A DNA stretch of 46,715 bases, from assembly GCA_948442695.1 (NCBI GenBank), contig CAOJSF010000003.1, positions 1 through 46,715 on the forward strand, read 5' to 3'. A program made the position numbers and the translations under genes. This DNA is from an uncultured Clostridia bacterium. Its GTDB lineage: Bacteria; Bacillota; Clostridia; Christensenellales; UBA1242. This document shows positions 22,094 to 38,096 of the stretch, piece by piece (position 1 is the first letter of the stretch; each line of letters opens with the position of its first letter). The notes under the pieces were generated by a model. That model made no database searches. It was not told the DNA's origin and saw only the letters and a list, made by a program, of their open reading frames with translations.

Positions 22094-22306
22094 ATGGAAA
22101 AAATTTTTATTCCCAGATTTAGGACAATTCATCAGTGCTTAGTTGAAATCAAAAAGATAGATAGCGAGAGTACAATCAGTGAATGATTTATTCGTTCATT
22201 GTGCAAGAAAGAACTAATTGAGTATTACCCTAGTGGCAATAAATCGTTAGTTAATTTTGATAACTTATTAGAGTATTTAGGTGGAGGCAGAAAAAATGAA
22301 GAATAA
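22094..22306 (+). CDS. Excisionase-like HTH protein with in-frame TGA
   Basis: AAAGGAG is upstream of ATG 22094 and the frame runs to TAA 22304-22306 apart from TGA at 22184-22186 (codon 31). The core, ISE-[TGA]-FIRSLCKKELIEYY, then GNKSLVNFDNLLEYL, matches the MerR-like excisionase domain (ISEW/Y..R.L.K.G.I ... G.K.LIN.D.L..YL). The TGA sits exactly where such proteins have an aromatic residue, often Trp. It overlaps the integrase start (ATG 22296) by 11 nt, so the two are translationally coupled. Xis proteins bend DNA and push integrases toward excision. Read as Trp it makes 70 aa; otherwise 30 aa. Confidence 0.6.
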
Positions 22307-23744
22307 GAATGATATTATGTCTATTAAAAAAGTATATAATAAGCGTGGCGAACTTAGTTTTCAATTATATGGTAGTGGTAAAGACCCATACACGAAAGAA
22401 TATAAAGTTTACCCAAAGAGATTTAAGGTACCAAAAGAATTAACCAAACAAAAAGATATTGATAAATTTAGAATGCAGATTCAAGTCGAGTGGAAAGAGA
22501 AAGTTGAGCAGTTATCAAAAGGCATACTTTTATACACTGACAAAAAAATCTGTTTTTGTGATTATGCTGAGCAATGGGTGGAAAGATTGAGACTATACAA
22601 CAAAGAGGGTTATAACCATTATGCACACTGCAAACTTCATTTAAAAACATTCAAAGAACATTTTGGTCGTTTTACACTAGCAGAAATGACCTTGCCTGTA
22701 ATTCAACATTTTTGTGATTGGTTATGTACTAGGACTTATAAAAAAGAAACAATAATTGTCAAAGAAAGTTTAAGACCTATTTTGAGAGCAAGAAAAATCA
22801 AAATTAAAGATATTGCCAGCGGTTGCACTTTGAATACTGAAACCGTAAAGCATGCTCTTACCATTGGAAAACATATCGCAAAAGACACTGCTAAAAAAAT
22901 GTGTAATTATTTAGATGTTCCCCTAACAACTTATTACAATGTGATAAGTGAAGATAGATTATATTCCAAAACCGCAAACAAAGGTTTAAAGGTTTTGCTA
23001 CATAGCATTTTAAAACAAGCGGTTAAGGAAAACCTTATTCCAATCAACTATGCTTCAAGTGAATATACCAACAAAGTGACTGGAACTGTTGGCAAGAAAA
23101 ACATTTATGAAACACAAGAAGAAATACAAGAGTTTTTGGACTGCCTTAGCAGAGAAAAAGACATAAGGAAAAAAGTTGCATTTTCAATAGGTATAAGTTT
23201 AGGATTGCGTGGTGCTGAAATTAGCGGACTAGCATGGCAAGATATTAACTTTGATAAAGGCACTATCTCAATAAATAAAAATACTATCTATGTTGAGGGT
23301 TTCGGTATCATCACAAAAGGTACTAAAAACAAATCTTCAACTAGAACAATTAATATGCCTAACACTCTTATAGAACTGTTAAAAGAGTACAATGTTTGGT
23401 GGTTGGAAGAACAAAAGAAACACGGCGATTTATGGGCTAACACCGACAAGTTATTTGTGCAAAATAATGGAAATGACATGAGCAACTGCACTATTGCAAT
23501 ATGGTTAAAAAAATTTCAAAGTGAAAATAATTTAAAAAGAGTGACCATGCACGGTTTAAGGCATACCAATATAACAGTGCTGATTTTAAATGGTGGTGAT
23601 TTTAGAACTGTTGCTTCTAGAGTTGGACATAGTGATGTGCAAACAACATTAAACATTTATTCACACTACACGAATCAATCCGACAAGAAAACAAGTGATT
23701 TGATAGAACAATTACTGTATGCACCAAAGGCTGTTAGTGTTTAG
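22296..23744 (+). CDS. Tyrosine recombinase (integrase) with inserted XRE-like domain
   Basis: 482 aa. Start ATG 22296 lies 8 nt after GGAGG; the GTG at 22281 is too close to be right. Arm-binding domain (~1-55), core-binding domain (~65-260), catalytic domain (~270-480) with Arg in GLRGAE, His-x-x-Arg in HGLRH, His in VGHSDV and Tyr in NIYSHYT. Between residues ~155 and ~215 an XRE-like helix-turn-helix (KIKDIASGCTLNTETVKHAL, then YLDVPLTTYYNV) splits the core-binding domain. All Trp codons here are TGG. It should integrate at a tRNA-like att site. TAG stop. Confidence 0.9.
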   Translation: MKNKNDIMSIKKVYNKRGELSFQLYGSGKDPYTKEYKVYPKRFKVPKELTKQKDIDKFRMQIQVEWKEKVEQLSKGILLYTDKKICFCDYAEQWVERLRLYNKEGYNHYAHCKLHLKTFKEHFGRFTLAEMTLPVIQHFCDWLCTRTYKKETIIVKESLRPILRARKIKIKDIASGCTLNTETVKHALTIGKHIAKDTAKKMCNYLDVPLTTYYNVISEDRLYSKTANKGLKVLLHSILKQAVKENLIPINYASSEYTNKVTGTVGKKNIYETQEEIQEFLDCLSREKDIRKKVAFSIGISLGLRGAEISGLAWQDINFDKGTISINKNTIYVEGFGIITKGTKNKSSTRTINMPNTLIELLKEYNVWWLEEQKKHGDLWANTDKLFVQNNGNDMSNCTIAIWLKKFQSENNLKRVTMHGLRHTNITVLILNGGDFRTVASRVGHSDVQTTLNIYSHYTNQSDKKTSDLIEQLLYAPKAVSV

Positions 23745-24018: not shown

Positions 24019-24846
24019 ATGGAAGAAAATAAAAATTTTGTCGTTGTCAACTATGATAATGGCATAACTCTAATTAAGAGAAGAAGAACAGACCCGAAAG
24101 CGGGAATGCCGACGGGTCGTAGCAAACACTGAAATAGCAGAGTAAGGAATGTTGAAACACCGTACATCACTACAAAGCAATACGAAAGCACACTTTATAG
24201 GAATGAGCAAAAACTAATCAATGTTGATTTAGTCAATCACGACTACAAAGTGTTAATGCTACCAACAGATACTGAAATGGACTATTTCGATTTTCAAGCA
24301 GAGGTTAAAAAGTTTATAGCGAGTTTTCGTTATGAATATAAAGATGTGGAATATATCAATGCGATTGAATGTTATGAAAATGGCTTCAATCGTTATCACT
24401 CACATTTGCTAGTTATATTTAAAGATAAAGCCCCTGTTTTGAGCCTCAACTGGTTGAAAGACCATTGGAAATTCGGTAAGATTACAATTCGTAATGTCAG
24501 AGAATTTGAAGAGAGCGACCCAATTAGATATTTTACTAAGTTCAAAGACAACAATCTACAACTTGATAAAAAAGAGTTGACCAAATTTCCGCAATTTGCC
24601 AAGTTTATTTCAACTAGCAGAAATCTGCCAATGGCAAATGTAATGTCCGCAGAATATGTGGACTACAAAACTGCTGTCAACACCTCTAACACTCTTTTAC
24701 AACAGAAAAGTGCTAAGATAAATAGACGAACACATATGTTTGAAAATAATGTTTACTTTGATGGTGCAACAGTCTATAATGTTGACAACACTAAATCACT
24801 TGGTTATGAGGACGACACCATTTATGGTGGCGAAGAAGTCTTCTAA
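24019..24846 (+). CDS. HUH-type replication initiator (Rep) with in-frame TGA
   Basis: GGAG lies 6 nt before ATG 24019. A single TGA at 24130-24132 (codon 38, within RSKH-[TGA]-NSRV) interrupts a 275-codon frame. The core (residues ~75-200) has HUH metal ligands in RYHSHLLVIF (His127, His129) and a catalytic Tyr with Lys in IRYFTKF (Tyr171, Lys174), the pattern of rolling-circle Reps of the G2P/ORF2 group. It should nick the element origin during replication or excision. The frame before the TGA is basic (KRRRTDPKAG). If TGA is a stop, a shorter product from ATG 24256 is possible, since the ~75 residues before the HUH core would be lost. Confidence 0.65.
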
Positions 24847-25312: not shown

Positions 25313-27028
25313 TTAATATTCTATTTCTTCTATGATACTGTTTTGTTTAGCAGGTATTATGTTTTTTTTTGAAGTTTGTTTGGTAGATACGTTACGCTTA
25401 TTTTTTTGCTCCTTGTAATAATCATAATTACCATAATATGTCGTCGTATGTCCGTCCTTAAATTCAATAGTCTTATCAGCAAATTTGTTGATAAAATATC
25501 GATCATGACTTACAAAAATCAATGTTCCATCAAAATCTTCGATTGCCTCTTCTAAAACCTCTTTTGTAGGAATATCAATATGGTTTGTGGGTTCGTCAAA
25601 AATTAATGTATTTATTTTTTGTTGCAAAAGCTCGGCAAGTTTTATACGTATTTTTTCACCACCAGAAAGATTTTTGATCTTTTTACTAACATCTTCCTTA
25701 TAGAATTGAAAGCCCGCAAGAATTTGCCTTGCTCTTTGTTCAGTTATTCCTATTTCCCCTTTAAAATACTCAAGCAATTTTATCTCTCCATTTGGGAAGT
25801 TTATTATTTGTGGTAAATACCCTACTTTTACACTCGGACCAATAAAAGACACACCGCTAATTGGCAGCGTCTGTTCCCCCATGATAGATTTAATAAAAGT
25901 TGACTTTCCGCTGCCATTTGCACCAATCAAAGCAACTCTTTCCCCTGCACAAATATTTAAATTTATTTTATCCAAAATGATTTTACCATTTGGCACATTA
26001 ACCGACAAATCCTCTGCTACAATTATACGTTTGCTTGTTTTTCTTTCTTCCTCAAAGCCAACTTTTAATTTCTTTTGCTCTTTTGGCCTTGCCACCGCTC
26101 TCTTTTTCATTCTGTCAAGTTGGGTCTGCAAAGCATGGGCTCTATCACACAATGTTGAACTATTTGTTGCCATGCCTCTTTCTGAGAAATATTTAATTTG
26201 TTCTTCTAAACGTTTCATAGCAATTTGTTGATCTTTATATTCAGCCATTTGCTTTTCAAAATCACGTTCACGCTCTTGTAGATAACCAGAATAATTTGTG
26301 CTATATACTTTTGCAATGCCATTATCAAGAGCGAGAATTTTTTTTGACATTCTGTCTAAGAAATATCTATCATGCGAAACAATGACAATTGCACCTTTAA
26401 AAGATTTTATATAACTTTCAAGCCATTCAATTCTTTCAATATCCAAATGATTGGTAGGCTCATCAAGCAAAAATAAATCTGGCTTAATTAGCAACGCTTT
26501 TGCAAGTTGAACCAAAGTTTTCTCGCCACCGCTTAAATCATCATATCTTTGCATCAATAAACTTTTATCAATTTTCAACCCCTCGACAATGGTGTTTATA
26601 TTGAAATCTATATCATAACCGCCTGCCATCGAAAATTTCTCTAATAGGTCACAATATTTGTTCATAATAGCGTTATATTCGCTTTCCGGTAAATTTTCAT
26701 TTAGTTTATTTTGCAACACGGCAAGTCGGTCATTCATTTCATTAAGTTCTTTGAATACGCTATGCAAAATTTCATTGACTGCTCTATCATCTTTTTGGCT
26801 TGAACCAGTTTGATCCAAATATGCAACACGGGCTCCTTTTTTGATATTAACATTGCCAGAATCAACTTTTTCTAACCCAGCAATCATTTTTAACATAGTT
26901 GACTTTCCACAACCATTTGGTCCAACAATGGAAATAGACTCCCCTTCATTCAATGAAAAAGAAACATCTTCAAAAAGTTGTCCATACCCAAAATTTTTTG
27001 AAATTTTATCAACATTAAGTATAAGCAT
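25313..27028 (-). CDS. ABC-F ribosome-protection ATPase
   Basis: 571 aa, two ABC domains without membrane segments. Walker A GPNGCGKST and GANGSGKST, signatures LSGGEKTLVQLAKALL and LSGGEKIRIKLAELL, Walker B LFLLDEPTNHLD and TLIFDEPTNHID, and the linker between (about residues 210-310, Glu/Arg/Lys-rich). Members bind in the ribosomal E site and displace antibiotics from the peptidyl transferase centre, or act as translation factors. ATG 27028 lies 7 nt after GAGG; the upstream TTG is rejected. Its place in the island with a nucleoside-antibiotic-like operon makes self-protection plausible, but a housekeeping ABC-F cannot be excluded without phylogeny. Confidence 0.85.
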   Translation of the reverse strand: MLILNVDKISKNFGYGQLFEDVSFSLNEGESISIVGPNGCGKSTMLKMIAGLEKVDSGNVNIKKGARVAYLDQTGSSQKDDRAVNEILHSVFKELNEMNDRLAVLQNKLNENLPESEYNAIMNKYCDLLEKFSMAGGYDIDFNINTIVEGLKIDKSLLMQRYDDLSGGEKTLVQLAKALLIKPDLFLLDEPTNHLDIERIEWLESYIKSFKGAIVIVSHDRYFLDRMSKKILALDNGIAKVYSTNYSGYLQERERDFEKQMAEYKDQQIAMKRLEEQIKYFSERGMATNSSTLCDRAHALQTQLDRMKKRAVARPKEQKKLKVGFEEERKTSKRIIVAEDLSVNVPNGKIILDKINLNICAGERVALIGANGSGKSTFIKSIMGEQTLPISGVSFIGPSVKVGYLPQIINFPNGEIKLLEYFKGEIGITEQRARQILAGFQFYKEDVSKKIKNLSGGEKIRIKLAELLQQKINTLIFDEPTNHIDIPTKEVLEEAIEDFDGTLIFVSHDRYFINKFADKTIEFKDGHTTTYYGNYDYYKEQKNKRNVSTKQTSKKNIIPAKQNSIIEEIEY

Positions 27029-27051
27029 CAAAAATCCTCACTTACATTAAA

Positions 27052-27080
27052 ATTTTATCACTAAAAACTTAACTTGTCAA
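27052..27080 (-). promoter_or_regulatory. Promoter of the ABC-F gene
   Basis: TTGACA, 17-nt spacer, TAAAAT on the minus strand; leader only ~20 nt, so no attenuator. Confidence 0.8.
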
Positions 27081-27106
27081 TATACTTCAACAAATATTTA
27101 TAATAG

Positions 27107-27135
27107 TTGACTTTTATATTTATTTAGTTTATAAT
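27107..27135 (+). promoter_or_regulatory. Promoter of the APH-like gene
   Basis: TTGACT, 17-nt spacer, TATAAT; divergent from the ABC-F promoter. Confidence 0.75.
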
Positions 27136-27186
27136 AAAATATATTAAAAAACTTAAAAATCTTAAAAGCGTCAAAAGGGAAACAAA

Positions 27187-27957
27187 ATGATAACAAATAT
27201 ACCAGAACAAATAAAAGTATTTATTAAAGATGCCACCATTCAAGAAATAAGCATAGGTTGCTCAAATACAAATGTGTATAAGATTGCCAAAACAGATGTG
27301 TTATATTTTTTGAAAATTGGGAAAATCCCAACCTTGACAAAAGAATACGCATCTCTTATTTGGCTTAATGGCAAATTGCATGTTCCTCAATGTGTGTGTT
27401 TTTGCAATGACGGGATAAATGAATATTTGCTTACTTCTTCTATGGAAGGAGGAATGAGCTGTTCAGATAAATATTTAGCTATACCAGAAAAAACAGTTGC
27501 TTTATTAGCAAAGGCTATAAAACAATTGCAATCTGTCGAAATACTTGATTTCCCATTTAGGGGTGATTTAACTTATAAATTAGGTCTGGCAGAATATAAC
27601 GTAAAAAACAATTTGCTTGTAGATAGCCCTAGCAGTAAAATCGGTAAAGAATTAAAATCTTATGAAAAAATATTGGAATATCTTATTAAAAATCGTCCTA
27701 CTGAACAATTAGTATTTTCACACGGAGATACTAGTTTACCTAATATATTCTTTGAAAACGATAAAGTAAGCGGTTTTATTGATGTAGGAGAATGCGGAGT
27801 TGCAGATAAATGGTTTGACATTGCTATTTGCTACAAATCAATAATAAGAAATTTTCCAGGCAGAGGTGATCTTTTAGAGCTGTTCCTAAAAGAATTAGGT
27901 GAACAGTATTCTAACAAGATAGATTACTATATAGCATTAATGGATCTATATGTTTAA
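27187..27957 (+). CDS. APH(3')-like aminoglycoside/antibiotic kinase
   Basis: 256 aa, close to the usual ~264 for APH(3') enzymes. Catalytic HGDTSLPNIF (Asp181, Asn186) and the Mg-binding FIDVGECGVADKWFDIA (Asp199) are intact. The order and spacing match APH(3')-IIIa-type kinases, which transfer phosphate from ATP to a hydroxyl. Whether it acts on an aminoglycoside or on the island's own nucleoside product cannot be told. Own promoter, ends in a terminator; the gene beside it is ABC-F. Confidence 0.85.
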   Translation: MITNIPEQIKVFIKDATIQEISIGCSNTNVYKIAKTDVLYFLKIGKIPTLTKEYASLIWLNGKLHVPQCVCFCNDGINEYLLTSSMEGGMSCSDKYLAIPEKTVALLAKAIKQLQSVEILDFPFRGDLTYKLGLAEYNVKNNLLVDSPSSKIGKELKSYEKILEYLIKNRPTEQLVFSHGDTSLPNIFFENDKVSGFIDVGECGVADKWFDIAICYKSIIRNFPGRGDLLELFLKELGEQYSNKIDYYIALMDLYV

Positions 27958-27985
27958 AAAATGGCTTTAAATAGCCATTTTTTAT
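27955..27985. terminator. Bidirectional terminator
   Basis: AAATGGCT/AGCCATTT stem with flanking A and T runs between the convergent APH and PHP genes. Confidence 0.85.
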
Positions 27986-28857
27986 AACATATTATTATCT
28001 TCAAAATAATCAACTAAACTACAACTTGTTTTTAATAAATTGTTGTTTATACCTGAACCAATAGTTTTATTGTTTCTATCTGGTCTATGATAATCAGATC
28101 CCACAGAAACTAGCATATTATTATCAGTAGCTAATTTTTGATTTTCTAACATTTGCACTTCGCTTGCGTCTGCATGAAAAACCTCTATTCCCAAAAGTCC
28201 TTCATCTTTTAATTGTTTTATAAGCAACTCTTTATCATCATAGTTCATTTTGATTTCTTGCGGATGAGCTAGCACTGCTGTCCCACCAGCCTTTATTATT
28301 AGTCTTATTGCATCAATTATATTCATTTCGTAATTTTGATATTTTGGAACAAATGGTTTTACGCTATCAACAAAATAATGTACATATTCATAATCATAAT
28401 CGTTTTTTACTAAAACTCTTTTCATCTCAGAAACTATGCTTAAATAATTTTCAAACTTAACTTCATCAAATATGCAGTCTGGGACATCAATTTTGTTTTT
28501 GATTAAATTATTTAGCATCTTAATATTTTCTCTATATCTCGCACATTTATATACTTGCATTTGTTTAACTATGGCAGAATTATAAATATCAATTCCATAC
28601 CCTAACAGATGCACTTTTTTTCGCGTCTTCTCAACAGGACTAAAATAATAAGTAGACAATTCAACAGCACTTATTGTTTTTAATTTATATTTATCTACCA
28701 AAGACTTTAATAATTCAAAATTACGTACATCATCATGGTCACAAATGGAAAACACTCTGACATTATTTTCTTTTGCCATGTGAATTAATTCGGCAATAGT
28801 TTGATAACCATCACTAAAAGTAGAATGTACATGTAAATCAATAAAAGTTTTATTCAT
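27982..28857 (-). CDS. PHP-domain phosphoesterase
   Basis: 291 aa. Metal ligands: DLHVHSTFSDG (His-x-His), CDHDD, the Glu of SAVELSTYY, AHPQEI, and SVGSDYHRPD near the end. This is the TrpH/YciV-like group that cleaves 3',5'-nucleoside bisphosphates or nucleotide ends. GAGG lies before ATG 28857; an upstream in-frame start at 28887 lies in the promoter. It could act on a nucleotide intermediate of the operon, but this is inference. Confidence 0.85.
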   Translation of the reverse strand: MNKTFIDLHVHSTFSDGYQTIAELIHMAKENNVRVFSICDHDDVRNFELLKSLVDKYKLKTISAVELSTYYFSPVEKTRKKVHLLGYGIDIYNSAIVKQMQVYKCARYRENIKMLNNLIKNKIDVPDCIFDEVKFENYLSIVSEMKRVLVKNDYDYEYVHYFVDSVKPFVPKYQNYEMNIIDAIRLIIKAGGTAVLAHPQEIKMNYDDKELLIKQLKDEGLLGIEVFHADASEVQMLENQKLATDNNMLVSVGSDYHRPDRNNKTIGSGINNNLLKTSCSLVDYFEDNNML

Positions 28858-28875
28858 AATTGACCTCTTGTTTAA

Positions 28876-28904
28876 ATAATAGTACATTTTACAAAATTTG
28901 TCAA
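28876..28904 (-). promoter_or_regulatory. Promoter of the PHP gene
   Basis: TTGACA, 17-nt spacer, TATTAT on the minus strand. Confidence 0.65.
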
Positions 28905-28912
28905 TAATTTAC

Positions 28913-28941
28913 TTGCTTTTTATAACAAAATAATTTATAAT
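28913..28941 (+). promoter_or_regulatory. Promoter of the GNAT gene
   Basis: TTGCTT, 17-nt spacer, TATAAT, with AGGAG before ATG 28984. Confidence 0.7.
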
Positions 28942-28983
28942 AAATATAGTTTATAACAATATCTAAATTAGGAGAATAAATAA

Positions 28984-29454
28984 ATGAGTATAACTATTGA
29001 TTATCTATCAAAACACATTCAAGATGCTGATTATGGGGAATTATGTAAACAAATTTATTATGTCACAGATCATCTAACAGTTGATTATCCCAAACATAAA
29101 GACTGGTTTTTTAATAAACATTTAAATGACATCGGAAAAGATAGAGAAGTTGTTTTTATAAAATTTCATAATAATATTTGTGGAGTTGCTTTTCTCAAGA
29201 AGACTATTAACGAAAAAAAGATTTGTACATTTTATGTGGCTGAATATAGCAGAAAACATGGGATTGGTGGGCAACTTTTAGAAGAATGCTTTAATTATTT
29301 AGACACTAAAACACCACTAATTTCTATGCCTAAATATAAAGTTCAATATTTTTTATACTATGTTTATAAATACGGCTGGAAAATAACCCAAATATTGCCT
29401 GGCTATTACAATAATGAAAATGACGAAGTTGTATTTAATGGTGAATTAAACTAA
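28984..29454 (+). CDS. GNAT N-acetyltransferase
   Basis: 156 aa. The acetyl-CoA-binding loop is YSRKHGIGGQLLEECF (R/Q-x-x-G-x-G/A), preceded by the beta strand ICTFYVAEY. Own promoter. Its TAA stop overlaps the opposite-strand stop of the DegT protein by 3 nt, so the two genes are tightly packed. Acetylation of an amino group is a common self-resistance mechanism for amino-sugar and nucleoside antibiotics, and it could serve that role here; the substrate is unknown. Confidence 0.75.
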   Translation: MSITIDYLSKHIQDADYGELCKQIYYVTDHLTVDYPKHKDWFFNKHLNDIGKDREVVFIKFHNNICGVAFLKKTINEKKICTFYVAEYSRKHGIGGQLLEECFNYLDTKTPLISMPKYKVQYFLYYVYKYGWKITQILPGYYNNENDEVVFNGELN

Positions 29455-30410
29455 CTTTCGCCATCAACAATTTTATTAAAATAATTACAAATTTCTAATA
29501 TATTATCTTCGTTTATCCAATCACAAGTTCTAAAATAATGATAAGAGGATTTCAAACATTTATAATTTTTAAAATAATTTAAATTTAATCTTGTATGATC
29601 AGTCATTAGCTTTTGCAAATTTGGCTCACAGAACGCCTCAACAGGAATAGTAGACTGATAATTGTCTATATGATTTTTATCCATGAACTTGTACATTTTT
29701 TCACTAATCTCATAATAATGTAGCGGTTTATAAAACAAAAGGCGATGATAAATATTATCAAGATAACAAGGCTTATCTAAAATATCTTTTTTGTTCAAAA
29801 ATCTTTTATATATTTTTACTTTTTCAAGCTTTTCTTTTAAAATATTTTTTATATTATCAAATTTATCGCTTAATACACTAAGCTTTTGTTCACTATACAA
29901 AGAAGGAAATTCATCAATTTCATATAAATTTGATGCGATAAAACCATAACATCCTACATCAATCGGTTTGCCTTTACCAAAAGAATAAATTACAAAATCC
30001 CCTTGCGAACTTTGTTTATATCTATTTTTTGCACAAACATATTGAGCTGAATCTTCTATAAGGATTATATTATATTCATTACAAAATTTTACAAAATTTG
30101 ATACATCTTTCAATATTCCATACGCATAAACATAAATCACTGCACTTATTTTATTATTAAAGCCTTGAACCAGTTTTTGATAATCCAAGCAAAAATCGTT
30201 ATCTACATCTATAAAAAATGGTAGACAGCCATATTCAATAATTTCATCAACAACACTTTTGCAAATAGTTACTGGCACGGCAATATAAGTGCCTTTCTTT
30301 ATTTTTGCATTTATTAAAGCAAATTTAATTGCCTCGGAACCACTGTTTGTTAGCTTTCCGAACAAAAATCCCCAAGTACACTTTATTTTTTTTTCAATTT
30401 CATTTTTCAT
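29451..30410 (-). CDS. DegT/DnrJ/EryC1-family protein (second)
   Basis: 319 aa from ATG 30410, which overlaps the FemAB-like gene by 11 nt; the upstream ORF start is not a good one. PLP fold: TNSGSEAIKFAL (phosphate-binding loop), LIEDSAQ (Asp120), and the Lys in SFGKGKPIDVG (Lys146 or 148), followed by GCYG instead of the usual GEGG. It is a sugar aminotransferase, or a dehydratase-like relative, acting on a keto sugar. Last gene of the operon; the C-terminus is less conserved, so activity is uncertain. Confidence 0.75.
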   Translation of the reverse strand: MKNEIEKKIKCTWGFLFGKLTNSGSEAIKFALINAKIKKGTYIAVPVTICKSVVDEIIEYGCLPFFIDVDNDFCLDYQKLVQGFNNKISAVIYVYAYGILKDVSNFVKFCNEYNIILIEDSAQYVCAKNRYKQSSQGDFVIYSFGKGKPIDVGCYGFIASNLYEIDEFPSLYSEQKLSVLSDKFDNIKNILKEKLEKVKIYKRFLNKKDILDKPCYLDNIYHRLLFYKPLHYYEISEKMYKFMDKNHIDNYQSTIPVEAFCEPNLQKLMTDHTRLNLNYFKNYKCLKSSYHYFRTCDWINEDNILEICNYFNKIVDGES

Positions 30411-31371
30411 AATAAGCATACATTGTCCTCGCAATTTCTTCTACACCATCAATATCATAATGCAAATTATAAAATCTATCTTGATAAGCACCAAATGATA
30501 TATTCCACTTTTCTACACTTTCATAAACAGATCCTTCAAAATCTATATATTTTATGTTTTTATTCTTACTTAAAAATTTAAATATGTTATCATATAAAAA
30601 AGCAATAGTGCCGAGATCATAATTTTTATCAAAATATGAATACATAATATAAGCAATCCCATTACGCCATAGCATCCCAACAGACCCTATCACAATATCA
30701 TCCTTAATTGCAACAAAACACATTCCATTATCATTCATAATGGCATTTGACAATATTTTTTTAACTTCATCTACTGATGAATCAAATCCATATTTGCTTT
30801 CCCATTCAACATATTTATTGATATTAGTTAATTGCAAAGCATCATCAGTTTTAAAAACCACATTATTATTGCAAGCCTTTCTGATCTCTTTTCTCCTATC
30901 ATGTCCATAATTTAAGTTGAGTAATTCTGGCTCACTTACATTTAATTTATATGTATATCTAATTTCTGGCATAAAACCTCGTCTAATATATGGCATTATA
31001 TCAACAATTTTGGGATCTATTGAAAATGAAATCTTTGTATATTGTCTTTTTAAAATTTCTATCAATGCATTATTGATTTCTCTTAAATATCGAATTTTGT
31101 TTCTTTCTTCGACAGGAACTTTTTTAATAACTGGCCCCCCATAAGGTATATACATTGTGCTTTGATTAAGTGTCTTGCTACCAACATCACAAAACAAAGG
31201 CATCAACGCCAGTATATCGTTATCCTCTTCTATAATCACAAAATTCTTTACATTTTTTAATTTTATAAACCAGCTAGTAGCAAATACCGTTCCGTTAAAA
31301 CTACGATCAATAAATTCATCTAAATTTATACGAGAATTCAATTCTCTATCACTAACAATTTTACTTGTCAT
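30400..31371 (-). CDS. FemAB-like / GNAT acyltransferase
   Basis: 323 aa from ATG 31371, which overlaps the upstream gene by 11 nt, with AGGAGG 4 nt ahead (two ATGs adjoin; the second is preferred). Residues ~130-310 carry a GNAT fold (GHDRRKEIRKACNNNV is the FemX/FemAB-type RKxIRxA motif, then ISFGAYQDRFYNLHYD). FemAB proteins transfer amino acids from aminoacyl-tRNA, so in this operon it may add an aminoacyl group to a nucleoside. This is inference from the fold and place. TGA stop overlaps the next gene. Confidence 0.7.
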   Translation of the reverse strand: MTSKIVSDRELNSRINLDEFIDRSFNGTVFATSWFIKLKNVKNFVIIEEDNDILALMPLFCDVGSKTLNQSTMYIPYGGPVIKKVPVEERNKIRYLREINNALIEILKRQYTKISFSIDPKIVDIMPYIRRGFMPEIRYTYKLNVSEPELLNLNYGHDRRKEIRKACNNNVVFKTDDALQLTNINKYVEWESKYGFDSSVDEVKKILSNAIMNDNGMCFVAIKDDIVIGSVGMLWRNGIAYIMYSYFDKNYDLGTIAFLYDNIFKFLSKNKNIKYIDFEGSVYESVEKWNISFGAYQDRFYNLHYDIDGVEEIARTMYAYYEK

Positions 31372-32203
31372 CATGCCTCCTAATTTCCAAATGACATCTT
31401 TTAACATCTGTATTTTTAAGCATGTCATAAAATTGGTTTCGTCGACCCCAAAAATCTAGCTCCAAATTTTTCCCTTGTCGATCTGCAATATAATTAATAT
31501 GGTTAAGCAATACTTTAATACCAGCACTTACTTGTCTGCCAGAATATGAAGCTCCCCACTTTGCAGCATACCAAATATCATTATCTGCTTTAAACCATAA
31601 AGAATATGCCATAGGTTCATTCCCCTTAAATGCAACCATTAATGATGAATTTTGCGGTTCTTTTATCAAATAAAAAACATATTGCAAATCTTCTCTATCT
31701 AACGATTTCATATCACATAATTTTTGTCCCTTCCAAGAATTTTTATCAATTTCAAGAACGCTTACCCACAAATCTAAAGAAGTACCATCATATAATTTAT
31801 ATTGTAAGCTTTTGTCTTTTTCAAACTTTATATAATCTTTTTTTAATAGAGAGCATTTGTTTTTTATATAGCTTTTTAAATCTTGATTTAAGAATAGTTG
31901 TGGAGCATCCCAAACATCAGCTATTTTTAAATCATAGTTATGTTTTTCACACCAATCTTGTAAAATAGATAGTTTCTTGACTTCTAAATTCAAATATTTG
32001 AATATAACTTTTTCTCTATGCTTTAGCAATTCATCTAATAAATTTTCAGAAAAGTCAAGGTTAAAAAATTGCAAGCATAACAACTCTGAATTGTTATCTA
32101 AAAAATCTACATCTTCTAATTCAATAATTTTTGAAATGTCATATCTTATCCTATTTGACTGTTTCCAAACTTCGGCGTTTGTAAAATTATCTTTTCCCAG
32201 CAC
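31361..32203 (-). CDS. GNAT-like acyltransferase (BcsL/CelD-type)
   Basis: 280 aa. GTG 32203 lies after GGAGGAG and overlaps the DegT gene by 17 nt. The C-terminal half (~145-275) resembles the double-GNAT acetyltransferase group found in sugar-decoration operons (SLMVAFKGNEPMAYSLWF, KWGASYSGRQVSAGIKVLL, LDFWGRRNQFYDML). I have no direct substrate evidence; a pairing with the FemAB-like next gene suggests both decorate the same amino sugar. Confidence 0.6.
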   Translation of the reverse strand: MLGKDNFTNAEVWKQSNRIRYDISKIIELEDVDFLDNNSELLCLQFFNLDFSENLLDELLKHREKVIFKYLNLEVKKLSILQDWCEKHNYDLKIADVWDAPQLFLNQDLKSYIKNKCSLLKKDYIKFEKDKSLQYKLYDGTSLDLWVSVLEIDKNSWKGQKLCDMKSLDREDLQYVFYLIKEPQNSSLMVAFKGNEPMAYSLWFKADNDIWYAAKWGASYSGRQVSAGIKVLLNHINYIADRQGKNLELDFWGRRNQFYDMLKNTDVKRCHLEIRRHDDK

Positions 32204-33386
32204 GGAACTCCTCCATTTTTGAAATAATAAATTTTACATGTTTGTGTTTAAACTCGGCAGACAAATTTAACCATGCAGTTCTATTTATTAGATCCATGGC
32301 TTTTGAACAATCACCCTCTTTATATTCTATATCAGTAAGATTAAATGGGTAATTGCTTTTATTTGGCCCTTGTTTCTTTTTAAACACATCATAACTGTTG
32401 ATTAATTTTGTACAATACTTGTTAAATGGTATTTGATACTTTTGCATGTAAGTTAAAAATTCTGTACAAATCTTGCCGTTTTCAAACACTAAACAAAAAC
32501 TTACATTGATATTTTTATTATAATCACTTTTTGCCCTAAGTTTATAAAATTTTGTCTTATCTAAATAATTTTTAAAATAATTAAAAATTTTATCTTGGTG
32601 TTTTACAATTTTTTCAATTTTAGATAATTGCGCCAAAGCAACCCCACTCTGCAACTCAGTGAGTTTATAATTTTCACCATAAGAAGTTTCACCATTCATC
32701 CAAGTTGGATAATCACAACCAACTCTATGACCACCGTTATCATGAAAGTCCTTAGCTTTTTGAAAAGCAACCTCGTCATTTGTTGCTAAAAAGCCACCTT
32801 CACCGCAAGTAATAGTTTTCCCCGCTTGAAGGCTAAATGCTCCAATATCACCCAAAGTCCCGCTCTTTTTATTATTGTATTCACTTGCAAACGCTTGTGC
32901 GGTATCTTCAATAATAATCAAATTATGCTTTTTCGCCACATCTAAAATTGGCAACATGTCACAACATTGCCCCTGCATATGTATACACATTATAGCTTTT
33001 GTCTTTTTTGTAATTGCCTGTTCGATTTTGGTTGGGTCTATATTCATACTTTCATCAATATCTACGAATTTAGGTATAGCCCCACAAGCCAAAACACTTG
33101 AAGCAGAAGCTATAAATGTAAATGGACTCATCAAAACTTCATCACCAGGCCCAATCCCATAAGCAATACAAGCAAGTTTTAATGCTGACGCTCCATTTGA
33201 ACAAGCAAGTACATATTTTACATTCAAGTATTCTTTTAATTTGCTTTCCAATTTATTTGTCATAAACAATAATTTAGGTCCATGGTATCTAAACAAAGAT
33301 TTTGCATTTAAAACTTTCAATGCATTAATCTTTTCTTTAAATCCTATGTATTTAGTTCCAATAAACGGATTATTAGGTATTTTCAT
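32187..33386 (-). CDS. DegT/DnrJ/EryC1 PLP aminotransferase (BlsH-like)
   Basis: 399 aa, full length. ATG 33386 follows AAAGGA and overlaps the glycosyltransferase gene by 14 nt. Phosphate loop CSNGASALKLA, EDTAQAF (Asp161), and Lys190 in FSLQAGKTITCGEGG binds PLP. The enzyme should aminate a 4-keto pyranose attached to cytosine, by analogy with BlsH in blasticidin S biosynthesis. Product and amino donor are inferred. Confidence 0.8.
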   Translation of the reverse strand: MKIPNNPFIGTKYIGFKEKINALKVLNAKSLFRYHGPKLLFMTNKLESKLKEYLNVKYVLACSNGASALKLACIAYGIGPGDEVLMSPFTFIASASSVLACGAIPKFVDIDESMNIDPTKIEQAITKKTKAIMCIHMQGQCCDMLPILDVAKKHNLIIIEDTAQAFASEYNNKKSGTLGDIGAFSLQAGKTITCGEGGFLATNDEVAFQKAKDFHDNGGHRVGCDYPTWMNGETSYGENYKLTELQSGVALAQLSKIEKIVKHQDKIFNYFKNYLDKTKFYKLRAKSDYNKNINVSFCLVFENGKICTEFLTYMQKYQIPFNKYCTKLINSYDVFKKKQGPNKSNYPFNLTDIEYKEGDCSKAMDLINRTAWLNLSAEFKHKHVKFIISKMEEFRAGKR

Positions 33387-34530
33387 AATCAATTCCTTTT
33401 AAAATGGTTTCAACAACAATGCTAGCTGCATCGCCAGAAAACTTAGACGTATACTCGTCTCGTTTTGCAAAATATTTCTGGTGTGTTTGAGAATTTATAA
33501 AGTCTATAACTTTGTCATGTAAAATGTTTGATATATCTTTTAAATATTGCTTAACATTATCAACCACCATATTTACACCTGTTTCTTCATCTAACAAATG
33601 TGGTACTTTTTTATAAAAAGAGTAAGCATCCCAATTTAATAATTCTAGTCCTAGATCCAATTTTTTATATTCAATCAACTGTAATAATTGACTATAATTG
33701 ACAGGCGGAATAAACATGAGATTTTTTGCTATACCAATGGACTCAATAAAATTACCCAAGCCTGAAGACATAATTACATGAGAACATAGATGTAGTTTTT
33801 GTATATATTCTTCATTTGGCAAAGTCTTTATTTCTACTTTCCCTGGGAATGTGACTTCTCTTTTGAGATAATCAATAATTCCACTTCCTCCGCAAACAAA
33901 GATCTTATTAAATTTATTGATTACTGGCTTACTTAAAATTTCATTTAGTGCTTTAAGATAAAACTTTTCAAGAATCGACTTATCTAACATAAAAGCTTCT
34001 GCACCACCAAAATTTATCATAAGCATATTTTTAGACTTGTAGTGTTTTTTATTTATTTCTCTTAAAGGCCCTATAAAAATTGGATTTTTTACATTCATTC
34101 CAATCTTTTTAAAATTTTCTTTACTACTAAATGTTTCAGAAATAAAATATCCGTCCACATTTCCTAGCCCAGGTGTAATCTGATCCCACATCCAAACCAA
34201 ATTATCAATAAAATAAACATTTTTTAAAGCCAACCTCTTAGCATATATCGCACCAAATTGATTTTCTGAACTCAAAATTGCTTTCGCATTAACAAACAAA
34301 CTCTTGAAACTTTCAAGTTCATTATAATCATACGTTTTACATTCAATAACTTGGTCAAAAAGTTTGCTTAGGATAGCCTGCTCTTTAGCTATGCTTGTTC
34401 CAAGAAAAATTAATTTCTCTTTTCTGTTTTTTTTGCTTAAAGTATTACTAAGATTTTTAACAACATTCAAGCATGTTATTATCGGCCCATAACCAAATTT
34501 TTCTGCAGTAATCAAAATATAATCATCCAT
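33373..34530 (-). CDS. GT-B glycosyltransferase (cytosylglucuronate synthase-like)
   Basis: 385 aa with the two-domain GT-B pattern: N-terminal GYGPIITCLNVV glycine loop, then MINFGGAEAF, IFVCGGSGI, and SHVIMSSGLGNFIESIGIAKN, the nucleotide-sugar site, with FIPPVNYSQLLQL after it. The overall layout and its place beside a CMP hydrolase and radical SAM enzyme suggest a BlsD/MilC-type cytosylglucuronic acid synthase, joining cytosine to glucuronate from UDP-glucuronate. ATG 34530 is 4 nt after the radical SAM stop. No UDP-glucose dehydrogenase is in the window. Confidence 0.65.
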   Translation of the reverse strand: MDDYILITAEKFGYGPIITCLNVVKNLSNTLSKKNRKEKLIFLGTSIAKEQAILSKLFDQVIECKTYDYNELESFKSLFVNAKAILSSENQFGAIYAKRLALKNVYFIDNLVWMWDQITPGLGNVDGYFISETFSSKENFKKIGMNVKNPIFIGPLREINKKHYKSKNMLMINFGGAEAFMLDKSILEKFYLKALNEILSKPVINKFNKIFVCGGSGIIDYLKREVTFPGKVEIKTLPNEEYIQKLHLCSHVIMSSGLGNFIESIGIAKNLMFIPPVNYSQLLQLIEYKKLDLGLELLNWDAYSFYKKVPHLLDEETGVNMVVDNVKQYLKDISNILHDKVIDFINSQTHQKYFAKRDEYTSKFSGDAASIVVETILKGIDYENT

Positions 34531-34533
34531 ATC

Positions 34534-35547
34534 TTATCCCTCTTTAACAATATTTCTATTAAAAATACAATTCGCTTCATCACATTTAATTTTACAATTA
34601 AGTTCACCTTTATTAAGCATGTTTAGTAAATCTGCTCTTTTTTGTCCAGTCCAAATATTCTTAAAGGTTTCTTCGTGCAGCGAACCTAAACAATATAAAT
34701 TTCTATCACAATGTATTGAACAATCACAAGGATAAACTTTTCCTGTTGGGCAATCAATAAAAGCAGTAAAATTTGCAAAAAAACAACGCATGTCTTGATT
34801 TTGTGTCCTTGCACCATTTAATTTAATTTCGCTATCAAAAATATCTAAACTTTGGCATAATAGATTTAATCCATATTGCCTTAACAAATCTAAATAATAT
34901 GATTTTTTATTATTAAAATCACATATTTGTTCTTTGCTTGGCGTCAGCTCTTCACAATCTTTTATAACAATAGGATTTAAATAGTCAAAATTTACACTTT
35001 CCTTTAATTTAATAAAGCCTTCAAAAAAATCGATATTCTGACTGTTTACCACATGATTTAAGTTCACTTTTACATTTGGTAGTTTTCTTTTAAGCTCATT
35101 TATGCCTTCTACTGCATTTTCAAATAAGTTCTCTGTTCTTCTTAAACTGTTATGTACCTTTGGAAAACAACTATCCAAAGAAACAAAAATTGCTTTTAGA
35201 TTCATGTTTACAAGTTTGTCAATCTGACTTTTTAGCAAAAAACCATTTGTAATAAACACAATATTCATTCCTTTCGAAGTCGCATATTGCATATAATCTA
35301 TAATCTTGCTATCTGTAAAAGGTTCGCCGCCACCAGTAAAATGTAAATATTTAGTCCCCAGCTCAGCCAATTCATCTATCAATTTGTAGACATCAACAGA
35401 GCATAACAATTTTTCATTGCAACGCACATCACAGAACACACAATTTGCATTACAAGTGTTTGTTAATGAAAGAAATATAAAAAATGGTTTATTTTTATAT
35501 TTTGTTTTTACCTCTTTCATATTTTCATCCAATAATGTTAAATACAT
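34534..35547 (-). CDS. Radical SAM enzyme (BlsE-like)
   Basis: 337 aa from ATG 35547 (AAGGTGG 7 nt ahead); an alternative start at 35520 avoids overlapping the hydrolase gene. The radical SAM [4Fe-4S] motif is CNANCVFC (Cys32, 36, 39 of CX3CX2C), followed by FTGGGEPF. A C-terminal SPASM/twitch-like cluster has Cys in DMRCFF, DCPTGKVYPCDC, SIHCDR, CLGSLH and CKIKCDEANC. It should use SAM to make a 5'-deoxyadenosyl radical. By analogy with BlsE it would decarboxylate cytosylglucuronate; this is inference from operon context. Confidence 0.8.
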   Translation of the reverse strand: MYLTLLDENMKEVKTKYKNKPFFIFLSLTNTCNANCVFCDVRCNEKLLCSVDVYKLIDELAELGTKYLHFTGGGEPFTDSKIIDYMQYATSKGMNIVFITNGFLLKSQIDKLVNMNLKAIFVSLDSCFPKVHNSLRRTENLFENAVEGINELKRKLPNVKVNLNHVVNSQNIDFFEGFIKLKESVNFDYLNPIVIKDCEELTPSKEQICDFNNKKSYYLDLLRQYGLNLLCQSLDIFDSEIKLNGARTQNQDMRCFFANFTAFIDCPTGKVYPCDCSIHCDRNLYCLGSLHEETFKNIWTGQKRADLLNMLNKGELNCKIKCDEANCIFNRNIVKEG

Positions 35548-36001
35548 TTTTTCCACCTTCCTGCAAAATTAAATTTTTAATATCTTGCAAAAGTCCCTTA
35601 GATGGAAAAGCATCTGAATAGTGATAAGTCACATTTGTCAACGTATTTAATCCCATTACAACTGGGGAATATTTTTTGTTCTTTTCTAGGAATATGTGCA
35701 TATTCTTTTTATTAGTTGAAGCCCAACCCATTTCAATATGGACACCGCCAGAAATAGGATCTCCAGGAACAACAATCATAATATCCGATTTAACAACACC
35801 CGCATAATCATTTGGAACACATTCTTCAGGACCTTTAAATTCAGCTCCCCAATCTTCTCTCTCGTGAGCCAAAAAGTAATCATGTCCATTTTCTTTGGCT
35901 ATTTTCTTCAATCCATCAAAAAAATCTCTATATTTAGAATTTACTTGTCCATCTGTTGAATTACATAATTGAGCAAAGGGAAAAGCATAAAATATATACA
36001 T
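35525..36001 (-). CDS. CMP hydrolase-like nucleosidase (BlsM/MilB type)
   Basis: 158 aa, nucleoside 2-deoxyribosyltransferase fold. Near the N-terminus FYAFPFAQL, then LAHEREDWGAEF, DIMIVVPGDP and SGGVHIEMGWAS; Glu90 in the last motif matches the catalytic nucleophile of MilB. BlsM/MilB-type enzymes cut CMP or hydroxymethyl-CMP to cytosine and ribose 5-phosphate, the first committed step of blasticidin/mildiomycin. A plain 2-deoxyribosyltransferase is the alternative. AAGGAG is inside the MazG gene, 1 nt separates them. TGA stop. Confidence 0.75.
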   Translation of the reverse strand: MYIFYAFPFAQLCNSTDGQVNSKYRDFFDGLKKIAKENGHDYFLAHEREDWGAEFKGPEECVPNDYAGVVKSDIMIVVPGDPISGGVHIEMGWASTNKKNMHIFLEKNKKYSPVVMGLNTLTNVTYHYSDAFPSKGLLQDIKNLILQEGGKNVFNIIG

Positions 36002-36002
36002 A

Positions 36003-36302
36003 TTATTTATCTCCTTTTAATTTTTCAATTCTTTTTTTAGTTCTAATAAGTTTCTCTAATCTTATAGAAGCAATTTCTTTTTCTCCAAAGTACATTTCAA
36101 TTTGCTCGATCATGTTATGCACATCAGCAATTTCTTCGAGAACATTTGCTTTTATAGCAGGATCGGCTTGCTCATAATTAAATCTCTTGTATTTGCATAA
36201 AGCTTTTATGAGCTCAGCCATTTCTTCAATAAGCATGTTGCTTTGAAGTTCATAGCCCCAAAAGTCTAACGCCTCCTGAGATATTTCTTTTATTTTATCC
36301 AT
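36003..36302 (-). CDS. MazG-like nucleotide pyrophosphohydrolase
   Basis: 99 aa, all-helical MazG/phage-type fold with the metal-binding pattern LIEEMAELIKAL (E-x-x-E-x-x-E) and VLEEIADVHNMIEQIE (E-x-x-D). These enzymes split NTPs to NMP and pyrophosphate. First gene of the operon, directly before the CMP hydrolase-like gene, so it may make CMP from CTP as substrate (inference). GGAGG lies before ATG 36302. Confidence 0.8.
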   Translation of the reverse strand: MDKIKEISQEALDFWGYELQSNMLIEEMAELIKALCKYKRFNYEQADPAIKANVLEEIADVHNMIEQIEMYFGEKEIASIRLEKLIRTKKRIEKLKGDK

Positions 36303-36373: not shown

Positions 36374-36408
36374 AAAAAACAGCAAGCTTTTGTAGTTAGC
36401 TGTTTTTT
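36374..36408 (-). terminator. Terminator after the LysR gene
   Basis: AAAAAACAGC/GCTGTTTTTT 10-bp stem with a 15-nt loop; it separates the LysR gene from the operon promoter. Confidence 0.75.
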
Positions 36409-37250
36409 ATAATTGATTTAATAAATTCTTTTGCTTTATTAGATATATACTTTTCGTTATAAACTATATTTATAGGAATAGATGGCAAATTAAAATCTGT
36501 CTTAAGAACAAAATATTCGTTATTCTTAAGTTTTTCTTCAACAAGTTCTTTTGGAATATACACAATAGCATCCAAACTATCTATAATAGATAAACACACG
36601 TGATTTGAATTAAATTCATATATAGGATTAATCTGCAATTCTTTGTCCAAAAATATCCTATCCAATTCTTTTCTTAACTTGGTAGTTTTTAATGGCAAAG
36701 AAAATCGATAATCTGATATATTGTTTTTATCTAAACTAATGTTATTTTTTGATACAAAAACCATATTCAAATCTTTAATTTTTTTGCAAGTTAAATTCCC
36801 TACATAATTACCAGCCAAAATCGCACATTCAATTTCTTTATTTTCTACTTTTTTAATCAAATCTTCAGCTGTATCATCAATAAATTTAATGCGAACATTC
36901 TTATTATCAATGATATATTTATTAAAATTTGTTAAAGCGTTAATTAAATATGACTGAACTCCTAAATTAAATTGATATTTGTTATCTGTTGTACTATTAA
37001 AAATTTTTTGCTCAGCAAGTTGCAGTGTATTAAAACAATCATCAACATATTCTAATAAATCACCACCTGTTTTAGTCAATTCAATTTTTTTGCCTCTTCT
37101 TATAAACAACTCGCTTTTAATAAATTTTTCTAATTCAGAAACAGAATAACTTACAGCTGGCTGCGAAACCCCAAGTTCTTTTGCTGCCAAAGAAAAACTG
37201 CCTAATTTTGAAACATAATAAAAAGTTTTATATAAATTCAAGTCAATCAC
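36396..37250 (-). CDS. LysR-family transcriptional regulator
   Basis: 284 aa from GTG 37250. N-terminal winged helix (FSLAAKELGVSQPAVSYSVSELEKFI) and a C-terminal periplasmic-binding-like effector domain. An in-frame ATG at 37265 overlaps the GGAGG ribosome site and would nearly be leaderless from the promoter below, so GTG is chosen. It lies upstream of the nucleoside-type operon in the same direction and likely controls it, with a small molecule as effector; no binding site (T-N11-A) was confirmed. Confidence 0.85.
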   Translation of the reverse strand: MIDLNLYKTFYYVSKLGSFSLAAKELGVSQPAVSYSVSELEKFIKSELFIRRGKKIELTKTGGDLLEYVDDCFNTLQLAEQKIFNSTTDNKYQFNLGVQSYLINALTNFNKYIIDNKNVRIKFIDDTAEDLIKKVENKEIECAILAGNYVGNLTCKKIKDLNMVFVSKNNISLDKNNISDYRFSLPLKTTKLRKELDRIFLDKELQINPIYEFNSNHVCLSIIDSLDAIVYIPKELVEEKLKNNEYFVLKTDFNLPSIPINIVYNEKYISNKAKEFIKSIIKNS

Positions 37251-37272
37251 AATTTTATCCTCCATAAAGCCT

Positions 37273-38021: not shown

Positions 38022-38096
38022 TGGTGCTCCCGTCAGGATTTGAACCCGAGACCTTTGTTCCGAAGACAAATGTGATATCCATTTCACTACGGGAGC
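38022..38096 (-). tRNA. tRNA-Arg (TCG)
   Basis: Minus-strand cloverleaf of 75 nt. Acceptor GCTCCCG/CGGGAGC, discriminator A, CCA encoded. Anticodon arm TTTGT-CTTCGGA-ACAAA gives anticodon TCG. Its loop is identical to that of the tRNA fragment at 24922, making it a likely attachment-site end of the island. Confidence 0.95.

Follow-up and report, generated by a model that had tools for sequence, protein, structure and literature searches.

A probable peptidyl cytosine nucleoside cluster from an uncultured Clostridia bacterium and related clusters in Bacilli

Cytosine-sugar antibiotics carrying amino acids are best known from Streptomyces. The window analysed here is a whole stretch of 46,715 nt on contig C3 of an uncultured Clostridia bacterium (assembly of 1.32 Mb, 96.9% complete), and it holds eight tightly packed, leftward open reading frames (29451–36302) that, together with adjoining resistance-type genes, probably direct the biosynthesis of a peptidyl cytosine nucleoside; we regard the cluster as a novel variation on the known routes to such compounds. 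A preliminary description had likened the locus to the early steps of blasticidin S and mildiomycin biosynthesis. That likeness stands in the cytidine monophosphate (CMP) hydrolase, in a glycosyltransferase (GT) related to cytosylglucuronate (CGA) synthases, and in the conserved gene order, but the proposed cytosylglucuronate intermediate is not supported, and the probable self-protection genes had been missed.

In the route that we propose, a MazG-like enzyme would convert cytidine triphosphate (CTP) to CMP, from which a MilB/BlsM-like hydrolase would release free cytosine. The CGA-synthase-like GT would then join cytosine to a uridine diphosphate (UDP)-hexose, probably UDP-glucose rather than UDP-glucuronate; a radical S-adenosylmethionine (SAM) enzyme would convert the pyranose, through loss of water or of hydrogen, to a keto-sugar; the aminotransferase AT1 would aminate this keto-sugar, with AT2 performing a second pyridoxal phosphate (PLP) step; and FemA2, perhaps with FemA1, would attach one or two amino acids from aminoacyl-tRNA. 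The product would hit the ribosome, the host being protected by an ABC-F protein and by reversible modification (an APH kinase with a PHP protein, and a GNAT enzyme). We infer these substrates and products, the tRNA dependence and the ribosomal target from the homologies, hydrolase residues, gene content and order, and resistance-type genes observed in the sequences. Taken as a whole, a more specific proposal can be put forward only tentatively, and the odds are somewhat against its being right in every part: that the clusters make a hitherto unreported family of peptidyl cytosine nucleosides that target the ribosome and are built on a neutral hexose in place of glucuronate, belong to uncultured Bacilli with reduced genomes and were handed on from these to a Clostridia genus, take amino acids from charged tRNA, obtain CMP through interchangeable MazG or HAM1 enzymes, and silence the drug through APH phosphorylation and PHP dephosphorylation besides ABC-F.

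Table 1. Genes of the proposed cluster and its adjoining regulator in the window
Feature	Coordinates	Strand	Basis of assignment
LysR-type regulator, possible pathway regulator	36396..37265	-	HTH_1 7.7e-17
MazG-like nucleoside triphosphate (NTP) pyrophosphohydrolase; proposed CTP -> CMP + PPi	36003..36302	-	PHROG 87.8 bits
CMP N-glycosidase-like (MilB/BlsM family); proposed CMP -> cytosine	35525..36001	-	PDB phmmer and residues
Radical SAM enzyme with SPASM domain, loosely like BlsE; may start at GTG 35556	34534..35547	-	PF04055 and SPASM
CGA-synthase-like GT; proposed cytosine + UDP-hexose -> cytosyl-hexopyranoside	33373..34530	-	TIGR04467, hhalign
AT1, DegT/DnrJ/EryC1/StrS sugar aminotransferase	32187..33386	-	PF01041 7.1e-84
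FemA1, conserved protein of uncertain family, possibly GNAT-like	31361..32203	-	In 10/10 window-type clusters
FemA2, GNAT superfamily, about 320 residues; proposed aminoacyl-tRNA-dependent transferase	30400..31371	-	Acetyltransf_4 5e-05
AT2, short second DegT-like aminotransferase; start at 30419 possible	29451..30410	-	PF01041 1.3e-20
Single-domain GNAT acetyltransferase, tailoring or self-protection	28984..29454	+	PF13673 23.7 bits, cut-off 23.6
PHP-domain protein, phosphatase-like	27982..28887	-	PF02811 3.5e-09; NF041577 131.1 bits, cut-off 400 missed
APH(3')-like kinase of small molecules; probably protects the host or tailors the product	27187..27957	+	PF01636 1.2e-22
Ribosomal-protection-like ABC-F, probable self-resistance	25313..27031	-	NF000355 455.8 bits, cut-off 380 passed

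Gene order and distribution

The eight open reading frames lie as the preliminary description had them, and its account of overlapping or 1–4-nt junctions is borne out: a 1-nt gap separates the MazG-like and hydrolase genes, a 3-nt gap the radical SAM and GT genes, and the remaining five junctions overlap, with GGAGG-like ribosome sites 5' of several of the eight genes. In line with that description, Pfam and NCBIfam searches with the eight proteins gave no match to a 2,3-aminomutase, nonribosomal peptide synthetase or ATP-grasp family. The single promoter placed ahead of the operon found no backing, since the promoter-like sites in the region number 71 against 71.3 ± 7.1 expected by shuffling and are thus indistinguishable from chance; one such site (36349–36321, 9/12 matches) lies upstream of the operon. 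The eight-gene borders hold as far as they go but were drawn too narrowly, because related clusters also carry PHP, APH-like kinase, ABC-F and sometimes GNAT genes, and the window's own copies at 25313–29454 therefore belong to the locus.

Searches with the window GT found it in two of 151 relatives (the source genome included) and in two of 391 genomes of the class, the same two in each case; the second carrier, G062, is of the same genus. The GT family profile matched one of 398 genomes of the phylum, the source genome itself. A scan of named genome contigs returned four loci, among them L016 (‘Bacilli bacterium isolate STF1_144’), whose order is PHP-hydrolase-rSAM-GT-AT1-FemA1-FemA2-methyltransferase-AT2-HAM1 (rSAM, radical SAM enzyme), and 13 of 241 genomes of its Bacilli order, L016 included, carry the GT. 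Of the eight-gene order that the preliminary description had proposed to look for in relatives, the series hydrolase-rSAM-GT-DegT-FemA1-FemA2 recurs in G062, in L016 (40–65% identity to the window proteins) and in further Bacilli clusters, and is therefore not a matter of chance. The preliminary description, with its picture of a pathway known from Streptomyces and carried by a low-GC anaerobe, had overlooked the higher frequency of the system in one Bacilli order (13/241) than in the Clostridia class sample (2/391).

The resulting clusters fall into two types, a window type (n = 10: the window, G062, L016 and L041–L047) and a second type (n = 5: L048–L052, from genomes G1069, G1106, G933, G983 and G1063). 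The radical SAM, GT, AT1, FemA1 and PHP genes are present in all ten window-type clusters, the hydrolase in nine (not L046), FemA2 and AT2 in nine (L045 is a short contig), APH in eight (in L016 and L045 the contig ends first) and ABC-F in seven (in G062, L016 and L045 the contig ends first). In the second type, hydrolase and GT occur in 5/5, and radical SAM, AT1, a FemA2-like protein (27–49 bits), AT2, PHP, APH and ABC-F in 4/5 each, with L049 and L050 truncated by contig ends; none of the five clusters gave a FemA1 match. In the GT tree the window and G062 are sisters (99/100) and group with eight Bacilli window-type rows (100/100), with long branches and an unresolved inner order. Because only two carriers were found among 151 relatives, transfer from Bacilli to the Clostridia genus is likely, though not proven.

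Additional genes accompany individual clusters. A PLP enzyme of fold type I is encoded in those of G062, L041 and L047, and L042 encodes a 202-residue protein (11488–12093) between the hydrolase and PHP genes that has no Pfam or NCBIfam match. A conserved protein of about 360 residues in L051 (11034–12113) and L052 (10959–12047) shows, by eye, class I tRNA-synthetase-like signatures (PHFG, and KLSKS in L051); neither copy has a Pfam match, and that of L051 is also without a match in NCBIfam or the PDB. Such a protein could charge an amino acid for a transferase reaction, but it is not used as evidence here.

Core enzymes and the sugar donor

The assignment of the hydrolase to the MilB/BlsM family, made in the preliminary description from the sequence SGGVHIEMG, was confirmed. 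The motif is present; the best PDB matches by phmmer are 4jen (1.6e-22), BlsM 5vto (1.2e-21) and 4jem (3.4e-20); and the Pfam nucleoside deoxyribosyltransferase family (Nuc_deoxyrib_tr) matches only below threshold. The accessible text of the MilB structure paper names F22, E62, D78, S97, G99 and E103 as key residues (PMC4081090), and these are kept in the window protein as F9, E49, D65, S84, G86 and E90, the last aligning with the MilB nucleophile E103. In the same text, Arg23 of MilB reads the 5-hydroxymethyl group, and Arg or Lys at this position in homologues is linked to a MilA/ThyA-like gene (PMC4081090). The corresponding residue is A10 in the window and Ala, Ser or Thr in 9/9 aligned window-type hydrolases, and profile searches of the cluster proteins matched no MilA/ThyA-like or thymidylate-synthase family. 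With Ala standing where MilB has Arg23, and without a match to such a family, CMP rather than hydroxymethyl-CMP is the substrate to be expected.

Relatives of this hydrolase occur in several other settings. It was found in two of 398 genomes of the phylum, the other carrier being Selenomonas sp. AE3005 (L009/L017), where it lies near a transposase recognized by eye and has no pathway neighbours in the fetched stretch; a search of viral contigs found no relative. In the Bacilli locus L018 (3944–9865), a MilB-like hydrolase is flanked by proteins resembling, by eye, a radical SAM enzyme, a phosphorylase and a B12-type radical SAM enzyme; there is no GT match, and the locus is perhaps a different cytosine-using cluster. 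On plasmid p1 of Rhodococcus sp. 2G (L014), a MilB-like hydrolase lies among genes for a nucleoside diphosphate-hexose 2,3-dehydratase, DegT, GNAT and glycosyltransferase proteins, an arrangement that we take to resemble an amicetin-type cluster.

The gene first described as MazG-like does match a nucleoside triphosphate pyrophosphohydrolase family in PHROG (Table 1). In L047 a homologous MazG domain lies directly 5' of the hydrolase (phmmer 1.8e-24) in fused form, behind a domain of about 330 residues that matches phrog_30143 (213 bits; L047:6743–8071). A MazG or HAM1 NTP pyrophosphatase is encoded in 10/15 clusters, weakly matched in four of them: MazG in the window, G062 and L047; another kind of MazG, at or under its cut-off, in L051 and L052; HAM1 in L016, L041 and L042; and HAM1 matches that stay under the cut-off in L048 and L050. 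No NTP pyrophosphatase was found in the stretches fetched for L043, L044 and L046, and contig ends cut off L045 and L049. The MazG and HAM1 folds are unlike one another. That two enzyme families seem to do the same job suggests that they supply CMP from CTP.

The window GT is a divergent relative of the CGA synthases as judged by profile comparison, the only means by which the kinship was detected; it has no Pfam match and no pairwise BLAST match to CGA synthases. Its best NCBIfam family is the CGA synthase family TIGR04467 (23.5 bits, E 2.7e-5; cut-off 300), which is also the best family, far below cut-off, for the GTs of G062, L016 and L047 (32.6, 33.6 and 29.1 bits). Aligned with hhalign to two annotated CGA synthases of Streptomyces/Kitasatospora, the window/G062 pair gave a probability of 76 (E 2.2e-5), and 12 GT homologues of both types gave 99.5 (E 2.2e-23, 319 columns), a score due in part to three second-type members, because these stand closer to the CGA synthases. 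Searches of plasmids by tblastn gave no match for the window GT and three records (L007, L010 and L012) for the second-type GT domain of L051, of which two carry a CGA synthase annotation at the matching place and one is unannotated. The CGA-synthase-like domain is fused in L051 (8484–10580) and L052 (8415–10505) to an N-terminal domain of about 330 residues. A Fem-like identity for this domain was rejected (no Pfam match in L051; FemA2 alignment of 20 columns, probability 0.7%), and its match to FemA1 (probability 2.5%) was dropped as evidence.

By sequence, the radical SAM enzyme bears no more than a loose likeness to BlsE. A profile built from three of these proteins retrieves BlsE first from the PDB (7vob/7voc, 2e-18), followed by SkfB (1.4e-10), and to this extent the BlsE-type step of the preliminary description is upheld; against it, the NCBIfam score for BlsE (TIGR04466, 86.8 bits; cut-off 400) hardly exceeds that for a tungsten-cofactor maturase (84.4 bits). 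BlsE, in the accessible part of its original description, has CxxxCxxC and GGEP motifs and was presented as a cytosylglucuronic acid decarboxylase (PMC3715490). CNANCxFC and GGGEP occur in 3/3 aligned cluster proteins, the cysteine motif being common to radical SAM enzymes generally. BlsE is reportedly a catalyst of radical 1,2-diol dehydration, as the title of a later paper has it, and we infer that the window enzyme would perform a radical step forming a keto-sugar. In the tree, BlsE and the second-type enzymes group together (93/96), whereas the window-type rows stand outside, in open forks.

These comparisons bear on the nature of the sugar. Against the CGA synthase family the two second-type GTs tested reach 167 and 200 bits, and against BlsE the two second-type radical SAM enzymes tested reach 161 and 169 bits, in each case far above the next family. 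These strong scores make it likely that the second type is a cytosylglucuronate pathway outside actinomycetes, with the window type as its divergent sister; the annotated CGA-synthase clusters that we found are all from actinomycetes. It could be argued that the window too encodes a true cytosylglucuronate pathway, with UDP-glucuronate as donor, a radical SAM enzyme acting as BlsE or MilG does, and a product of the blasticidin or mildiomycin type: the GT family aligns with CGA synthases, BlsE is the best PDB match of the radical SAM enzyme, and the second-type clusters look exactly so, with a UDP-glucose dehydrogenase gene inside the clusters of L048 and L050. We consider this unlikely. UDP-sugar 6-dehydrogenase (TIGR03026) exceeds its cut-off in only one of ten window-type genomes, against four of five second-type and 13 of 14 control genomes (window vs second type, Fisher p 0.017, a post hoc test on related genomes whose drafts may lack genes), and the window GT and radical SAM enzyme fall far short of cut-offs of 300 and 400 bits. 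In the source genome TIGR03026 is below cut-off, as is PF03721 there, in G062 and in the genome of L016. Since the dehydrogenase is mostly under cut-off in window-type carriers, the cytosylglucuronate intermediate of the preliminary description is not retained, and the window type probably uses a UDP-hexose other than UDP-glucuronate; UDP-glucose is our guess.

Two DegT aminotransferases had been named in the locus, and both match PF01041. AT1 has the PLP Lys and PDB relatives among sugar and sugar-nucleotide aminotransferases (to 1.5e-68), and the PLP Lys and Asp are kept in 13/13 aligned AT2 proteins. The labels given to the two genes between them proved weaker than stated. The window copy of FemA1, first called GNAT, has no Pfam or NCBIfam match, Acetyltransf_6 appearing in one of its ten homologues, and a search of plasmids with the L016 copy found no match. 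FemA2, first called FemAB-like, has only a GNAT match (Acetyltransf_4, 23.8 bits), just under the cut-off of 24.3, while Acetyltransf_6 is found in 7/12 homologues at E<=0.1, the L016 copy exceeding its cut-off (24.7 vs 22). This copy retrieved four plasmid records by tblastn (86–92% of its length, 20–23% identity), three of them annotated as GNAT. Because no FemAB family was matched, ‘Fem-like’ derives from the GNAT matches and protein length; by analogy with other small-molecule pathways, FemA2, and perhaps FemA1 too, may add amino acids from aminoacyl-tRNA. Kinship between FemA1 and FemA2 was considered but is not claimed (hhalign probability 0.7%, E 0.078 over 97 columns; two unrelated families aligned over 8 and 28 columns).

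Probable self-protection genes and competing explanations

The genes beyond the eight-gene operon recur across the clusters. PHP is present in 14/15 clusters; APH in 12/15, the contig end coming first in the others; ABC-F in 11/15, among them all 10 of the 13 Bacilli clusters that are uncut by a contig end on that side; and GNAT in 6/15, with homologues beside APH in L041 and L042, inside the clusters of L048 and L050, and in G062. The ABC-F of L041, like that of the window, passes the ribosomal-protection cut-off, and the window APH meets its Pfam cut-off but narrowly misses that of NF033068 (198.8 bits, cut-off 205). Collectively, the presence of ABC-F, APH, PHP and GNAT in the cluster suggests a product that targets the ribosome and a host that protects itself; such a target fits because blasticidin S blocks translation (PMC5572114). 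The pairing of APH with PHP suggests, by analogy, that the product is held inside the cell in a phosphorylated, silent form. Streptomycin and amicoumacin are parallels for such a form.

It is also conceivable, if a little less probable than a cytosylglucuronate pathway, that the core is read correctly but that ABC-F, APH and GNAT are ordinary resistance genes nearby, the product not acting on the ribosome. Homologues of the window ABC-F (57–81% identity) exist in 12 other genomes of the genus (G059, G070, G009 and nine others), of which 11 gave no match when screened with the GT (G912 was left out), and GNAT occurs in a minority of clusters. The recurrence of ABC-F together with APH at 10 of 13 Bacilli clusters (those uncut by a contig end), in both types, argues against this explanation and overturned the idea of ABC-F as a generic neighbour. 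Moreover, among 101 genus genomes searched at E<=1e-30, the only homologues of the window APH were one of 77% identity in G062, the other carrier, and one of 39% in G014. The ABC-F of genus-mates in which no cluster was detected may be the matching resistance of neighbours.

Several observations weigh against the interpretation of the locus as a ribosome-targeting peptidyl cytosine nucleoside cluster. Those 12 genus genomes carry ABC-F copies most of which are nearer to the window protein than are the Bacilli cluster copies (39–42%; L047, 61%), and G062 has no ABC-F at E<=1e-140. Among the hydrolases, Ile replaces MilB Phe22 in 5/5 second-type proteins (the other five residues are kept), the tree separates the second type from all other rows, and the fetched stretch of L046 holds no hydrolase. 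The MazG-like enzyme may clean nucleotide pools rather than feed CMP. Besides the low family scores of the window GT and radical SAM enzyme given above, the L016 radical SAM enzyme matches AhbD best (97.5 bits), BlsE coming only fourteenth among families (65.7 bits). AT2 shares just 27% identity between the window and L016. The single Acetyltransf_6 match in FemA1 lies under its cut-off (21.8 vs 22 bits), FemA1 has neither a credible PDB relative nor a credible alignment to FemA2, and profile searches listed no FemAB family for any FemA1 or FemA2 tested. Finally, profile searches of the cluster proteins matched no exporter family.

An improbable reading makes the locus a surface-sugar or glycan-modification operon, whose DegT, GNAT and GT proteins would act on a sugar of the cell envelope and whose hydrolase would be an ordinary nucleoside 2-deoxyribosyltransferase. 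Glycan loci do commonly encode DegT, GNAT and glycosyltransferase proteins, the best PDB relatives of AT1 are sugar-nucleotide aminotransferases, and relatives of FemA2 include plain GNAT proteins of Cupriavidus and Parabacteroides. Yet in the PDB the hydrolase finds CMP N-glycosidases (3e-19 to 2e-22) while Nuc_deoxyrib_tr stays under cut-off, the GT is related to CGA synthases, profile searches matched no membrane-protein family within the cluster, and ABC-F and APH recur alongside. A bacimethrin-like or other antivitamin pathway using only free (hydroxymethyl)cytosine, for which a Priestia plasmid (L008) with genes for a MilB-type hydrolase, a thymidylate synthase and a methyltransferase might be cited, is scarcely credible and was set aside, given that the cluster lacks a match to any thymidylate-synthase family, has Ala and not Arg or Lys at the hydroxymethyl-reading position, and contains GT, DegT and radical SAM genes with no evident role in such a pathway.

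Around the proposed cluster, a LysR gene like that of the window also lies near the clusters of G062 and of 8/13 Bacilli carriers. The window further encodes a tyrosine integrase (22281–23741, +) and a replication-protein-like gene (24250–24846, +), and a 45% paralogue of the integrase lies on the opposite flank of the cluster (C3:48472–49908, -). Integration of an island at tRNA-Arg (38022–38096) was considered but not adopted: the repeats are short (up to 15 bases), and neither an attachment repeat nor defined island ends were found.

Comparison with known systems

If our reading is correct, the fifteen clusters show that genomes as small as their carriers' (drafts of 0.9–1.6 Mb) invest in translation inhibitors, and they grade from a type with clear CGA-synthase and BlsE likeness into a divergent one; they also lead to direct predictions about the sugar donor, the chemistry of the radical step and the tRNA-dependent assembly. 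Among the matches listed by a literature search that left most subscription journals outside its reach, none describes this system, a result that speaks only weakly for novelty; in the same search, the papers that name cytosylglucuronate or cytosylglucuronic treat Streptomyces or Streptoverticillium pathways.

The blasticidin/arginomycin-type loci of Kitasatospora NBC_00039 (L007) and Streptomyces NBC_00467 (L012) have a BlsM-like hydrolase, a CGA synthase, BlsE and DegT in common with the window. Their side-chain genes differ, the window proteins being without a match to BlsF, arginine 2,3-aminomutase (L007), the ATP-grasp ligase or the major facilitator superfamily exporter. In gougerotin biosynthesis (gouA–gouN), as far as the accessible text describes it, a 4-amino cytosylglucuronate skeleton is joined to activated amino acids (PMC12835213); compared by description, this pathway employs amino-acid coenzyme A activation (GouK) and an N-acetyltransferase (GouJ), unlike the window (PMC12835213). 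A parallel for the proposed amino-acid attachment is provided by the GNAT-fold aminoacyl-tRNA transferases of small-molecule pathways, namely Orf11 (BD-12), PacB, VlmA and DhpH-C/DhpK, of which Orf11 is described in the available text as acting on an amino-sugar intermediate (PMC12945691). All of these belong, as does FemA2, to the GNAT superfamily, a likeness drawn by description (PMC12945691).

Closest in logic is mildiomycin. The accessible account of its pathway lists a hydrolase, a CGA synthase, a putative DegT enzyme, a putative radical SAM cytosylglucuronate decarboxylase and, in MilH, a putative tRNA-dependent aminoacyltransferase (PMC11784345), and the list of functions (MilB, MilC, MilD, MilG and MilH) is the same as that of the window (PMC11784345). 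The two differ in that no MilA-like CMP hydroxymethylase was matched in the window, whose hydrolase has a CMP-type pocket. The window GT and radical SAM enzyme lie far from the curated families and, by their cut-offs, outside those of CGA synthase and BlsE, yet in our reading they would work like them, and to this shared core the window adds MazG, APH, PHP and ABC-F.

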